A stretch of DNA of 64,000 nucleotides from Sporolactobacillus kofuensis. Lineage in GTDB: Bacteria; Bacillota; Bacilli; Bacillales; Sporolactobacillaceae. Location of the stretch: positions 1-64,000 of the forward strand of contig NZ_JAMXWN010000012.1 of the NCBI RefSeq assembly GCF_024125425.1. Reading direction: 5' to 3'. Position 1 is the first letter of the stretch. Every line of letters starts with the position of its first letter. Below, piece by piece: positions 22,287 through 29,291 of this stretch. The position numbers were made by a program, and so were the translations under genes. The notes beneath the pieces were generated by a model, which saw only the letters and a list, made by a program, of their open reading frames with translations, did no database searches and was not told where the DNA came from.

Positions 22287-22339
22287 AGAGAATCATGAAA
22301 CAAAAATTTGTCAAATGCTTCTTCAAAAATCGCTTAGTG

Positions 22340-22912
22340 CTGAATCCGAACCCGAATCCGGTGACCCGAACCGAATCCGGCGTAATCCGAACCGAATCCG
22401 GCCGAATCCGAACCGAATCTCGGCATATCCGAACCGAATCCGGTGACCCGAACCGAATGGATCCGAATCCGAACCGAATCTGGTGAACCGAACCGAATCC
22501 GGCGTGATCCGAACCGAATCCAGCGTAATCCGAACCGAATGGATCCGAATCCGAACCGAATCCGGCGTAATCCGAGCCGAATGGAGCTGAATCCGAACCG
22601 AATCCGACGCTACCCGAACCGAATCTCGGCATATCCGAGCCGAATGCGACGTGACCCGAACCGAATCTGGTGACCCGAGCCGAATGGAGCTGAATCCGAA
22701 CCGAATCCAGCGTAATCCGAACCGAATGGAGCTGAATCCGAACCGAATCCGGCGTAATCCGAGCCGAATCTGGTGACCCGAATCTGGTGACCCGACCCGA
22801 ATCCGGCGTGATCCGAACCGAATGGATCCGAATCCGAGCCGAATCTGGTGACCCGACCCGAATGGAGCTGAATCCGAACCGAATCCGGTGCTACCCGAAC
22901 CGAATCTGGACT
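22340..22912. repeat. Array of about 26 imperfect 21-bp repeats
   Basis: A conserved TCCGAACCGAAT half alternates with a variable nine-base half (CCGGCGTAA, GGATCCGAA, CTGGTGACC, GGAGCTGAA, CTCGGCATA and others), giving a 21-bp period over about 570 bases. Since 21 is a multiple of three, several frames stay open on both strands (NPNR.. on plus, GFGSDYA.. on minus), but none has a convincing start and product. It lies between two plus-strand genes and is compositionally unlike its surroundings. Confidence 0.9.
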
Positions 22913-23055
22913 ATCGGGATGAAGACTTCTCCTATGTTCCTCGGATATCGAAAGTAATCATTTGAAAATGAGTGGATAATTCTTTTACTTGATACACAAA
23001 AATATAATGAGTCAGAAGGTGAGGTGAAAATGAAGTAAAAGGGAGGGGGATCGTC

Positions 23056-26942: not shown

Positions 26943-27623
26943 TCATGCTTTTGATAATCGATCTAAATGCCAAATATATGGACAGAGTAATGCGGGATTG
27001 TCTGGAGATACAAAGTTGCAGATTTCATTTGCCTCACCCTTAGTGACTTTCTTGTTCAAAAGTTGAGTCAACCACTTTTCAAGATGAGCATCAAAGAGAA
27101 CAGCACTATTATCAACATGGTCAAATGCAAAGTGAAAATCAAGAGTCAGAATTAAAAATAAAAAATTGGCTTTCTTATCGCTAATTCCTGAAACGCTCTT
27201 TAGGTTATTGACAAAAACAAAATAGTCCAAAGAATTAGTTAGAAAGCGGTCTGGGGATTGATACTCATGCACAATAATTGTTGACAGAGAGGTAATATAT
27301 TCCGCCATTTTTCCCGGAAAGCGGTGAAGTGCTGGTTTCTGTGCGATGGCATCTCTAACGCGTTCACTATGATTCATCATCCATTCCGGATTAAAATGAT
27401 CTTTACCAATCCTATTCAGCAATGAATGTGGAAGATTCCAGGCGACTTCAGATTTGACAGATTGATCGACAATCACCGCGATCAATAAAGCAAAGCTGTT
27501 TTTCTCAACGAGAGCTCTACTCTCCCGTGACATCATGATCGCGTCTAACATAGACGTTGGCTTGGATTTCTGAAAGTCATTTTTTAATTCTTCTAATCTT
27601 GGTACTAAAGCTGTGTCGATCAT
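26943..27623 (-). CDS. Putative HhH-GPD-type DNA repair-like protein
   Basis: The 226-residue, mainly helical protein has 'FALLIAVIVDQSVKSEVAWNLPHSLLNRIG', which recalls the start of helix-hairpin-helix DNA glycosylases (...LLVATILDQ...), then 'RDAIAQKPALHRFPGKMAEY', 'SGISDKKANFLFLILTLDF', where the HhH Lys could lie, and a tail 'ICNFVSPDNPALLCPYIWHLDRL'. There is no Fe-S cysteine cluster. I am not sure of the catalytic Asp. An alternative is an uncharacterised helical protein of the same fold. The ATG at 27623 follows GGGGGCAG. It stands alone. Confidence 0.4.
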   Translation of the reverse strand: MIDTALVPRLEELKNDFQKSKPTSMLDAIMMSRESRALVEKNSFALLIAVIVDQSVKSEVAWNLPHSLLNRIGKDHFNPEWMMNHSERVRDAIAQKPALHRFPGKMAEYITSLSTIIVHEYQSPDRFLTNSLDYFVFVNNLKSVSGISDKKANFLFLILTLDFHFAFDHVDNSAVLFDAHLEKWLTQLLNKKVTKGEANEICNFVSPDNPALLCPYIWHLDRLSKA

Positions 27624-27783: not shown

Positions 27784-27966
27784 TTAGTACTCATTGAACT
27801 TTTTTCTAGAACGTAACCGTAAATGAACGGCTCGATACTCATCCTCTAGAACAATTAAGGGCAATTCAAAAAGCTGTTTTCCATTTATTTTATATACGTT
27901 AGCCTCGATGAGCTGATCGATGAGTTTCTGTCGTTTCCAGTCTTCATTAGTTAAGAGTGTATCCAT
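27784..27966 (-). CDS. Fbpa-domain (FbpA-like) small protein under SAM riboswitch
   Basis: The 60-residue protein reads 'RQKLIDQLIEANVYKI' and 'GKQLFELPLIVLEDEYR', the pattern of the Fbpa domain (Fur-regulated basic protein A), with a basic tail (RLRSRKKF). In Bacillus subtilis FbpA is a small helper of the iron-sparing RNA FsrA. Here no Fur box was recognised; instead a complete S-box riboswitch and terminator lie directly upstream on the same strand. The start at 27966 has AAGGAG seven bases upstream, just after the terminator hairpin. Its role may be linked to methionine or SAM status, which is inference. Confidence 0.7.
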   Translation of the reverse strand: MDTLLTNEDWKRQKLIDQLIEANVYKINGKQLFELPLIVLEDEYRAVHLRLRSRKKFNEY

Positions 27967-27984
27967 GGTAATACTCCTTTCTCG

Positions 27985-28028
27985 ATCAAAAAATAAAGCC
28001 CTCTCTTCTAAAATAAGAAGAGAAGGCA
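27985..28028 (-). terminator. Riboswitch-controlled terminator
   Basis: On the minus strand GCCTTCTCTTC pairs with GAAGAGAGGGC and TTTATTTTTT follows; it lies between the S-box aptamer and the Fbpa gene. Confidence 0.85.
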
Positions 28029-28040
28029 TCTTTTCAGACC

Positions 28041-28150
28041 ACTCAACTTATCTTCAAAGCAAATTGCTTATTGGAATTAGCACCGTGTCATTAATGACCG
28101 GTTGCTGAGGTTTCATAGGGCCAATCCCTCCACCTCTCTAGATAAGCGGA
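28041..28150 (-). ncRNA. SAM-I (S-box) riboswitch
   Basis: The minus strand contains all conserved S-box blocks in order: P1 CTTATC, then AGAGAGGTGGAGGGATTGGC, CCCTATGAAACC, CAGCAACC, GGTGCTAATTCC and the closing GATAAG. A terminator hairpin follows, so SAM binding should stop transcription. The P1 3' strand (GATAAGTTGAG) can pair alternatively downstream as an antiterminator. S-box elements normally precede methionine, cysteine or SAM genes. Confidence 0.95.
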
Positions 28151-28171
28151 AACACTTATTAAATTAGTGAC

Positions 28172-28202
28172 ATCATATACCTTATTAATCACAGTTGTCA
28201 AC
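28172..28202 (-). promoter_or_regulatory. Promoter of the riboswitch transcript
   Basis: On the minus strand TTGACA is followed 16-18 bases later by TATATG/TATGAT, a vegetative-type promoter about 25 bases before the aptamer. Confidence 0.6.
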
Positions 28203-28301
28203 TATGATTAATAATTTTCGTTGAAAAAGAACATGAACTTATGCGATAATGCAACAAGATTATCACGAAGAACGGTATCAATAAGGAGAGAACGAGAACG
28301 A

Positions 28302-28594: not shown

Positions 28595-28624
28595 TTGACT
28601 CTGCAAATTAAATTGTGCACAATG
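28595..28624 (+). promoter_or_regulatory. ohrR promoter with palindromic operator
   Basis: TTGACT is followed after 17 bases by CACAAT. The perfect palindrome ATTGTGCACAAT (28612-28623) overlaps the -10 site. The motif recurs before tpx. Confidence 0.5.
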
Positions 28625-28656
28625 TAATAAAGGCAATACGAAAAAGAGGGCTAGAT

Positions 28657-29112
28657 TTGGAAAAACATCTGAACTTACAGGATCACCTATGTTTCTCTTT
28701 GTACGCATGTTCTCGGGCAATCTCTCGAATGTATCGGCCACTCCTCGATCAATTAGGCATTACCTATCCACAGTATCTTGTCCTTCTTGTGCTGTGGGAA
28801 AGAGGAAAATGTTCGATCAAGGATCTCGGCCAAAGATTGGACTTGGATTCTGGTACGCTAACACCTTTGCTGAAAAGAATGGAGAGCAAGCAACTTATTC
28901 GGCGACAACGCCTCGAAGAAGACGAGCGTGTCGTTGTGGTGACTTTAACAGAAAAAGGTGAAACGCTTTGGCGAGAGGCGGTATGTATCCCGTCATCACT
29001 TGTTCGTTCAAGCGGATTGCAGGCTGAAGAATTAAAAGAGCTGAACGAGAAGATTCAACGATTGACTGAACATGTCTTACAATTCAGTGCGGAAAACCAA
29101 CATAGGTTGTAA
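28657..29112 (+). CDS. ohrR: OhrR-type MarR regulator (organic peroxide sensor)
   Basis: This 151-residue regulator has 'LQDHLCFSLYACSRAISRMYRPLLDQLGITYPQYLVLLVLWE', the OhrR signature with reactive Cys at residue 12 and a second Cys at 18. The winged helix holds 'IKDLGQRLDLDSGTLTPLLKRMESKQLIRR' and 'DERVVVVTLTEKG'. OhrR represses peroxide-defence genes until its Cys is oxidised. TTG at 28657 with GAGGG upstream fits best; an ATG at 28615 is possible. The usual partner ohrA is not here; a thiol peroxidase gene follows, preceded by a related operator. Confidence 0.85.
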   Translation: MEKHLNLQDHLCFSLYACSRAISRMYRPLLDQLGITYPQYLVLLVLWERGKCSIKDLGQRLDLDSGTLTPLLKRMESKQLIRRQRLEEDERVVVVTLTEKGETLWREAVCIPSSLVRSSGLQAEELKELNEKIQRLTEHVLQFSAENQHRL

Positions 29113-29150
29113 TTTGAACATGGATTTTGAACAAAAATTTTTTTCGCTAA

Positions 29151-29190
29151 TAAATTGTGCAAAATATAATTTTACACAATGCAATAAAGG
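29151..29190 (+). promoter_or_regulatory. Operator before tpx resembling the ohrR operator
   Basis: ATTGTG and CACAAT arms lie in inverted orientation, and ACACAATGCAATAAAGG repeats the sequence found before ohrR (CACAATGTAATAAAGG). Confidence 0.5.
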
Positions 29191-29291
29191 AGGTGATGAT
29201 CACACATAATAAGCGTTTATTGTGGCTAGAGTACTTATTATTTAGTTAATGATTTAATCCTGTATACCCTATTAAATTGGAGGAAGATAAA

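Follow-up and report, generated by a model that had tools for sequence, protein, structure and literature searches.

A SAM-I riboswitch and a CymR-type promoter site upstream of a lone Fbp-family small protein in Sporolactobacillus kofuensis: probable control by two sulfur signals

The DNA analyzed here (the window) comprises 64,000 nucleotides of a Sporolactobacillus kofuensis contig (NZ_JAMXWN010000012.1, positions 1 to 64,000 of the forward strand, assembly GCF_024125425.1). The source genome measures 2.96 Mb in 43 contigs, is 99.75% complete, and contains eight SAM riboswitches and three Fbp matches, one of each lying together on the minus strand of the window. In the direction of transcription, the features of this locus are the following:

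28182..28214, minus strand: 33-nt dyad TTATTAATCATAGTTG-A-CAACTGTGATTAATAA over the -35 region, almost perfect, equaled by 0 of 60 shuffles
28203-28184, minus strand: CymR-type box AGTTGACAACTGTGATTAAT, an exact pattern match with a matrix score of 15.3, equaled by 0 of 1000 shuffles
28172..28201, minus strand: sigma-70-type promoter TTGACA-18-TATGAT, 11 of 12 consensus positions
28045..28148, minus strand: SAM-I (S-box) riboswitch aptamer, RF00162, 91.1 bits, E 1.9e-20
27989..28027, minus strand: intrinsic terminator, a 12-pair stem (28027-27998) followed by the T-run TTTATTTTTT
27974..27980, minus strand: ribosome-binding site AAAGGAG, read directly, 7 nt 5' of the ATG
27784..27966, minus strand: 60-aa small protein of the Fur_reg_FbpA family, PF13076, 42.8 bits (cut-off 22), E 4.1e-11
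26943..27623, minus strand: HhH-GPD-type DNA glycosylase-like gene, beginning 160 nt past the Fbp stop

An earlier note on this DNA had described a canonical SAM-I element, a promoter, a terminator and an Fbp-type ORF in this order on the minus strand, and all of these elements are present. The match of the Rfam SAM model is significant (gathering score 44.4) and its alignment is untruncated, spanning model positions 1-108 of 108; RF00162 is the sole Rfam family reported across the window at gathering thresholds. The promoter ranks first among 11 promoter-like sites in a scan of a 3-kb stretch, a scan that is not significant alone because 8.2 such sites are expected in shuffles, and the terminator scan of this stretch returned three terminator-like sites against 1.9 expected. 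The terminator hairpin has a computed energy of -19.3 kcal/mol, and the 3' strand of P1 can pair with the 5' arm of the terminator in an alternative duplex computed at -13.4 kcal/mol, which 6 of 200 shuffles equal; these energies are computed only. This terminator/antiterminator arrangement via the 3' strand of P1 follows the usual S-box logic. We judge right the earlier reading that low SAM would turn the small protein on.

SAM riboswitches normally regulate sulfur-amino-acid genes. The seven other S-box elements of the genome stand before genes assigned, by eye from their translations, as metQ/metN, metI/C-like, metE, metE-like, GAF-protein, sulfhydrylase-like and metK. The locus studied here resembles other SAM-I (S-box) RF00162 loci in its complete aptamer and its transcription-terminator platform, but differs from them in controlling a 60-aa Fbp-family protein instead of a methionine or cysteine enzyme or transporter, as well as in the CymR-type box added at the promoter of the unit. 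The chance expectation of an aptamer lying within 300 nt upstream of some Fbp gene of this genome, on the same strand, is about 0.001.

The Pfam match of the 60-aa ORF to the Fbpa domain, also anticipated by the earlier note, is significant, whereas NCBIfam offers no credible family for it (the single match reaches 13.3 bits against a cut-off of 300). The domain, named for FbpA, is shared with FbpA, FbpB and FbpC of Bacillus subtilis, which the protein further resembles in size class and in being expressed singly under a regulator of nutrient limitation. It differs from them in that Fur is replaced by a SAM riboswitch and a CymR-type box, and in that it is barely basic (pI 8.0, net charge of about +0.3 at pH 7.4); the median pI of 28 Fbp relatives that have the CymR-type box only is 9.6. 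An AlphaFold2 model (pLDDT 80.7) shows two helices flanking a short pair of strands. A PDB sequence search found no relative at E values up to 1, and a fold search with the model returned nothing usable (best match E 2.5).

The pairing of a SAM aptamer with an Fbp gene was found in at least 29 genomes belonging to at least eight family-level groups (f1, f11, f19, f21, f27, f41, f43 and f47), i.e., it recurs in 28 genomes besides the one in which the earlier note had pointed it out. The family survey applied PF13076 and RF00162 to 26 genomes and scanned 42 loci (L009-L050) of the 59 Fbp matches listed. A same-strand aptamer lies directly upstream of Fbp in at least 10 of the 15 Sporolactobacillus genomes and in at least three of the 11 other genomes of the family, and five of the 15 genus genomes have no adjacent pair among the Fbp loci scanned. 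The wider sets consisted of 80 named loci and the 30 best order-level loci (both from alignment A1) and the 30 best class-level loci (alignment A5); the two sets of 30 are best-scoring ones and not random samples. A covariance model derived from 20 aptamers served to search all three sets. The pair occurs at 10 of the 80 named loci (eight from Sporolactobacillus), at 19 of the 30 best order-level loci and at three of the 28 class-level loci scanned, two others (L204 and L209, from already known genomes) having been left out of the rescan. These counts overlap, as the order-level set shares loci with the genus and family sets and one of the three class-level pairs had already been counted. No SAM match at E values up to 0.1 was obtained at the other 70 named loci (Neobacillus, Sporosarcina, Planococcus, Bhargavaea and others). 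Besides Sporolactobacillus, the pair-bearing genomes include one recorded as Bacillus haikouensis and a Bacillus coagulans MAG, whose contig and aptamer positions match those of the f21 genome G247 and which was counted once with it.

Across the 29 loci, the aptamer is separated from the Fbp start codon by 57-175 nt. All 27 leaders examined gave a hairpin call ahead of a T-rich stretch, some of these calls being doubtful (for example L155, at -3.0 kcal/mol, L045, and several f27 leaders for which the script took a later hairpin). The antiterminator duplex was reached by at most 5% of shuffles in 14 of the 27 leaders; the other 13 did not outdo 95% of shuffles in this crude test, in part because the script chose the wrong hairpin.

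These intervals bear on whether the Fbp gene is what the riboswitch controls. As no terminator was found by the terminator scan between the Fbp ORF and the HhH-GPD-type gene, read-through into the latter is possible, and the riboswitch might serve this gene, or a methionine gene since lost, with Fbp as a by-stander. The downstream gene itself is only tentatively assigned, with both of its matches below their cut-offs (PF00730, 18.7 bits against 26.2; TIGR03252, 58.5 bits against 136.5). However, inspection by eye revealed no other gene between aptamer and Fbp at any of the 29 loci; specifically, the methionine gene that the earlier note had named as the observation that would make the ORF a by-stander is seen at none of them. 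Moreover, the gene downstream varies among lineages while the SAM-Fbp pair stays. We thus reject the by-stander reading, which we consider very improbable, and take Fbp as the controlled gene, with the HhH-GPD-type gene probably outside its unit.

A conserved operon was likewise rejected as a general feature, since the neighbors of the pair vary among lineages. Within lineages, some neighbors are shared (all by eye): a peptidase-like gene upstream at L012, L015 and L018, a hemY-like gene at six of seven f27 loci and at L097, and a mutL-like gene at L134 and L139. In one genome a gene of the TauE sulfite-exporter family begins about 30 nt past Fbp (L047), and in G065 a further SAM riboswitch lies after the SAM-Fbp unit, ahead of a gene that by eye resembles CysJ. 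In Sporolactobacillus vineae, a boxed SAM riboswitch (L175, 1501-1659) is followed by what looks by eye like an IS110-type element reaching the contig end, and the contig that carries Fbp (L052, 1-1302) starts within apparently the same element, which therefore probably sits between riboswitch and Fbp.

The promoter of the unit carries a second candidate control element. Among the first 13 SAM-Fbp promoters, nine share by eye a motif like AGTTGACA-nn-TnkGAnTAAT. The perfect dyad was rejected as a general feature, being confined to the window; most other promoters share an asymmetric box. A pattern search of 13 Sporolactobacillus genomes allowing at most one mismatch gave 13 matches, compared with four for the reversed pattern. 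Eight of the 13 lie at SAM-Fbp units, two of these being both strands of the window dyad and one belonging to the split S. vineae unit; the remainder precede luxS (in two genomes, the second by eye), a GAF-domain gene, a SAM-riboswitch-bearing gene of oligopeptide-binding type and, by eye, a leucyl-tRNA synthetase-like leader in the window's genome (G000), which we take as a chance match. Closely similar sequences (ACTTTACAnATAGGAATTAT or ACTTGACAnnTnGGnATTAT) precede SAM-free Fbp genes of Neobacillus, Niallia and Metabacillus, and a related pattern run over eight genomes (seven of the SAM-free type and that of L097) gave 23 matches against seven for the control. Of the 23, seven stand before Fbp and eight before other genes; six lie inside ORFs and two are unconvincing. 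The eight other genes comprise two SsuA-type genes, CysJ, TauE/SafE, a CitMHS-type transporter, a TcyP-looking DAACS symporter (cystine-type by eye) and two alpha/beta hydrolases.

The box was thus defined de novo from the genes that it precedes and not from the published CymR consensus. We call it CymR-type because several boxed genes belong to sulfur assimilation, because luxS and tcyP figure as putative CymR targets in Bacillus cereus (PMC3519770), and because cymR is encoded in the source genome (NF047409 equivalog, 214.1 bits, cut-off 195). The position of the box over the -35 region, the presence of cymR, and the occurrence of the box before LuxS, CysJ, SsuA-type and DAACS-symporter genes recall the CymR regulon of Bacillales, of which we found no Fbp protein named as a member in the open-access literature covered by our searches. 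Motifs of the IscR type are similar to the box (PMC3828012). As a side observation, the GAF-domain gene, by eye possibly a free-methionine-sulfoxide reductase, has a SAM riboswitch in the window's genome and a CymR-type box without riboswitch in G008 (loci L006 and L172), another swap between the two sulfur controls.

The association of the box with Fbp genes was quantified with a matrix built from 11 non-Fbp sites and run over 400-nt upstream stretches of 125 distinct Fbp genes (152 loci reduced to 125 distinct proteins, duplicate copies being counted once), with a box called where no more than 2 of 200 block shuffles did as well. It was called for 23 of 27 SAM-linked Fbps, for 28 of 29 SAM-free Fbps with the C-terminal HPH tail described below, and for none of the 69 others, two of which are near misses (L157, 3/200 shuffles; L160, 4/200). 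L012, L015, L018 and L045 have the aptamer and no box; L137 has the HPH tail and neither box nor aptamer. Two SAM-linked Fbps found later, outside the 27, are boxed (L206, 0/200) and unboxed (L216, 55/200), so that five of 29 SAM-linked Fbps lack the box in total (L012, L015, L018, L045 and L216). Sporolactobacillus laevolacticus and Sporolactobacillus putidus are among the species with box and riboswitch alike. The matrix also finds no box at any of the seven other SAM-riboswitch promoters of the window's genome.

The training sites were eight of the 16 non-Fbp matches of the related pattern and three of the five non-Fbp matches of the first pattern. Those left out were L181, L190, L192, L200, L201 and L202 (inside ORFs) and the unconvincing L189 and L195 from the former, and L178 and L179, together with L175 of the split Fbp unit, from the latter. 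For four of the 11, the gene that follows shows no clear tie to sulfur (two alpha/beta hydrolases, a GAF protein and a CitMHS-type transporter). As these sites came from Fbp-derived patterns and were picked by eye, the independence of the matrix is incomplete; this limit does not touch the contrast to the other 69 Fbps or to the other seven SAM promoters.

Since the promoter appears to bear a CymR-type site in addition to the SAM riboswitch downstream of it, the unit is probably controlled by two sulfur signals. The sulfur-control reading of the earlier note hence stands as regards the riboswitch and was incomplete in that the promoter site had been overlooked. We favor, as the likely explanation, that the locus is a one-protein Fbp transcription unit controlled by sulfur at two steps, with Fbp as an effector of sulfur limitation. 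This proposal starts from the observed order of aptamer, terminator and ORF, its conservation, its association with the box and the presence of a cymR gene, from which we infer the switching itself, binding by CymR and the role of the protein. When cysteine is plentiful, CymR at the operator over the -35 region would keep the promoter shut. If SAM is bound, P1 would keep its 3' strand, the terminator would form and the RNA would stop before the ORF; when SAM is missing, that strand would instead pair with the terminator's 5' arm, allowing Fbp to be made. The two steps would form an AND gate in which the promoter opens at low cysteine, with CymR off, and the terminator is passed at low SAM; given these two control steps, production of Fbp would require low cysteine and low SAM together. 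The riboswitch step has good support, and the CymR step is deduced from motifs. Sulfur would accordingly govern Fbp as iron governs FbpA, FbpB and FbpC in B. subtilis.

Fur controls the synthesis of those three proteins when iron is limiting, and part of the targets of the FsrA sRNA depend on them (PMC7430163; PMC8464778). This precedent and the family name raise the question of whether the Fbp of the window is still an iron-sparing protein, the sulfur control serving to tune an iron-sulfur economy through the supply of Fe-S clusters or the chelation of Fe(II) by cysteine. Excess cysteine was reported to lower available Fe(II) in Staphylococcus aureus (preprint PMC12822559). Additionally, within the same family, an Fbp gene of G016 (L040) lies behind a perfect Fur box (TGATAATCATTATCA) and has neither SAM aptamer nor CymR-type box, so that iron and sulfur versions of Fbp coexist in one family. 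Under a lenient criterion (up to 3 mismatches, with no more than 3 of 60 shuffles as good), Fur-like sites, the one of L040 included, precede two of the 29 HPH-tailed SAM-free Fbps (L089 and L128, both boxed) and three of the 69 others. However, the search for a Fur box at the window was negative: its best site has 5 mismatches in 14 positions to the Fur consensus and is equaled by 53 of 60 shuffles. The iron/Fur link that the earlier note had brought in is not supported at this locus. Furthermore, the clearest boxed genes are those of sulfur uptake and assimilation. A retained iron-sparing role is consequently a contender that we rate as unlikely, and an effector of sulfur limitation remains the reading that we prefer.

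Many sulfur-linked relatives differ from FbpA, FbpB and FbpC in a C-terminal HPHxxxxSIxW tail. It is present in 15 of 17 SAM-linked Fbps of the matrix set that come from outside Sporolactobacillus (L043 and L045 being without it) and is also missing from the later-found SAM-linked L206 and L216. The Sporolactobacillus copies have no HPH tail, a few of them ending in His-rich stretches. In a tail alignment of 20 sequences, 19 of which were chosen for having the tail, the first H is invariant and the P and second H are nearly so. The Fbp gene tree, which rests on 64 usable columns, is poorly resolved, and a single clade of sulfur-linked Fbps, considered as a candidate, does not emerge from it. 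The three regulatory labels require eight changes on this tree compared with a shuffled mean of 48.8, i.e., they are strongly clustered.

The sRNA-helper role suggested in the earlier note draws by analogy on B. subtilis, whose Fbp proteins act with the sRNA FsrA on some targets (PMC7430163 and PMC8464778), these reviews describing RNA binding as unproven for any of the three. Sulfur-linked Fbps could in this way assist an sRNA or redirect mRNA decay, which we hold to be rather unlikely because the window protein is barely basic, the searches gave no fold relative and we know of no partner sRNA. The terminated SAM-I leader of Listeria, SreA, has been reported to act as an sRNA.

Such a precedent suggests a further alternative, namely that the functional product of the window locus is the terminated leader of about 150 nt acting in trans, with the Fbp ORF as a helper or secondary product. 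The strong terminator is predicted to yield a discrete short RNA, no metabolic gene is seen between aptamer and Fbp, and the FsrA precedent would also fit. Nevertheless, the leader looks like an ordinary aptamer and terminator in which no extra conserved segment is apparent by eye, and the relatives with only a CymR-type box keep Fbp without any riboswitch, which argues that the protein is the retained part. We therefore regard a trans-acting RNA as improbable, and the Fbp protein as the more plausible effector.

Riboswitch class, protein family and regulator are all known already, and as far as our searches go the wiring is new within the open-access literature covered: no report of a SAM- or CymR-controlled Fbp was found there, the broader searches reaching titles and the starts of abstracts. 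A regulatory small protein would hereby join the outputs of SAM riboswitches, and a large Fbp subfamily under two independent sulfur signals, present in many genomes and mostly without a metabolic gene, would separate Fbp function from iron. The unit also offers a clean inducible system for asking what Fbp does, by adding or removing methionine and cysteine. More speculatively, Bacillales might spare sulfur by a response organized as the one that spares iron, in which Fbps would be general small helpers that re-rank mRNAs under nutrient limitation. A subfamily would have exchanged Fur for CymR boxes, for SAM-I riboswitches and for an unnamed third type of sulfur leader, in lineage-specific combinations, and where the riboswitch is present the terminated leader could itself be the partner sRNA; taken as a whole we think this rather unlikely.

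The unnamed leader is a candidate regulatory element with the pattern GCTGATYGG-N3-5-CCRAAGGC that runs into an intrinsic terminator. It was seen at L180, L191, L194, L197, L199, L206, L234-L262 (not L236, L243, L252 and L259) and twice at L263 (253-272 and 905-924), with small departures from the pattern at L180, L197 and L206. It lies upstream of sulfur genes (SsuA-type, TauE and CitMHS transporter genes and, by eye, genes for a sulfate-binding protein, an SsuD-like protein and an Rrf2 regulator), often just 3' of a CymR-type box, and at L206 between the box and the SAM-riboswitch-Fbp unit. The exact pattern occurs in 38 of 199 genomes of the order compared with one control match; matches that resemble chance include L233, L236, L243, L252 and L259. 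The Y and R positions correspond to each other, C with G or T with A, a few matches excepted. No Rfam family covers the leader at its gathering score in the loci scanned, and a search of eight loci up to E 0.5 likewise gave nothing that reached a family gathering score there.

Another arrangement was observed in group f44, where four Fbp loci (L263-L266) follow a gene of the DUF2292 type (PF10055; one scanned with Pfam, the rest assigned by eye). Each set consists of a CymR-type box (0/200 shuffles in three loci, 1/200 in one), a CTGAT leader with terminator, a short ORF, the DUF2292-type gene and Fbp, so that another attenuator-like leader accompanies the box. The short ORF ends near Tyr-Arg-Cys-Cys and resembles a cysteine attenuation peptide. 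At L265 the DUF2292-like frame has an internal stop.

Two other regions of the window deserve mention. On the plus strand, 28600-29200 holds the gene of a MarR-family regulator that by eye is OhrR-like, along with one for an AhpC/TSA redoxin, each preceded by one of the similar sites TTGTGCACAA / TTTTGCACAA; they are probably a peroxide-response pair. At 22295-22957, the ORF list shows a tandem-repeat-like stretch in which several frames are open on both strands, with repeats such as RIRRNPNRM / FGSDYAGFGSDS.
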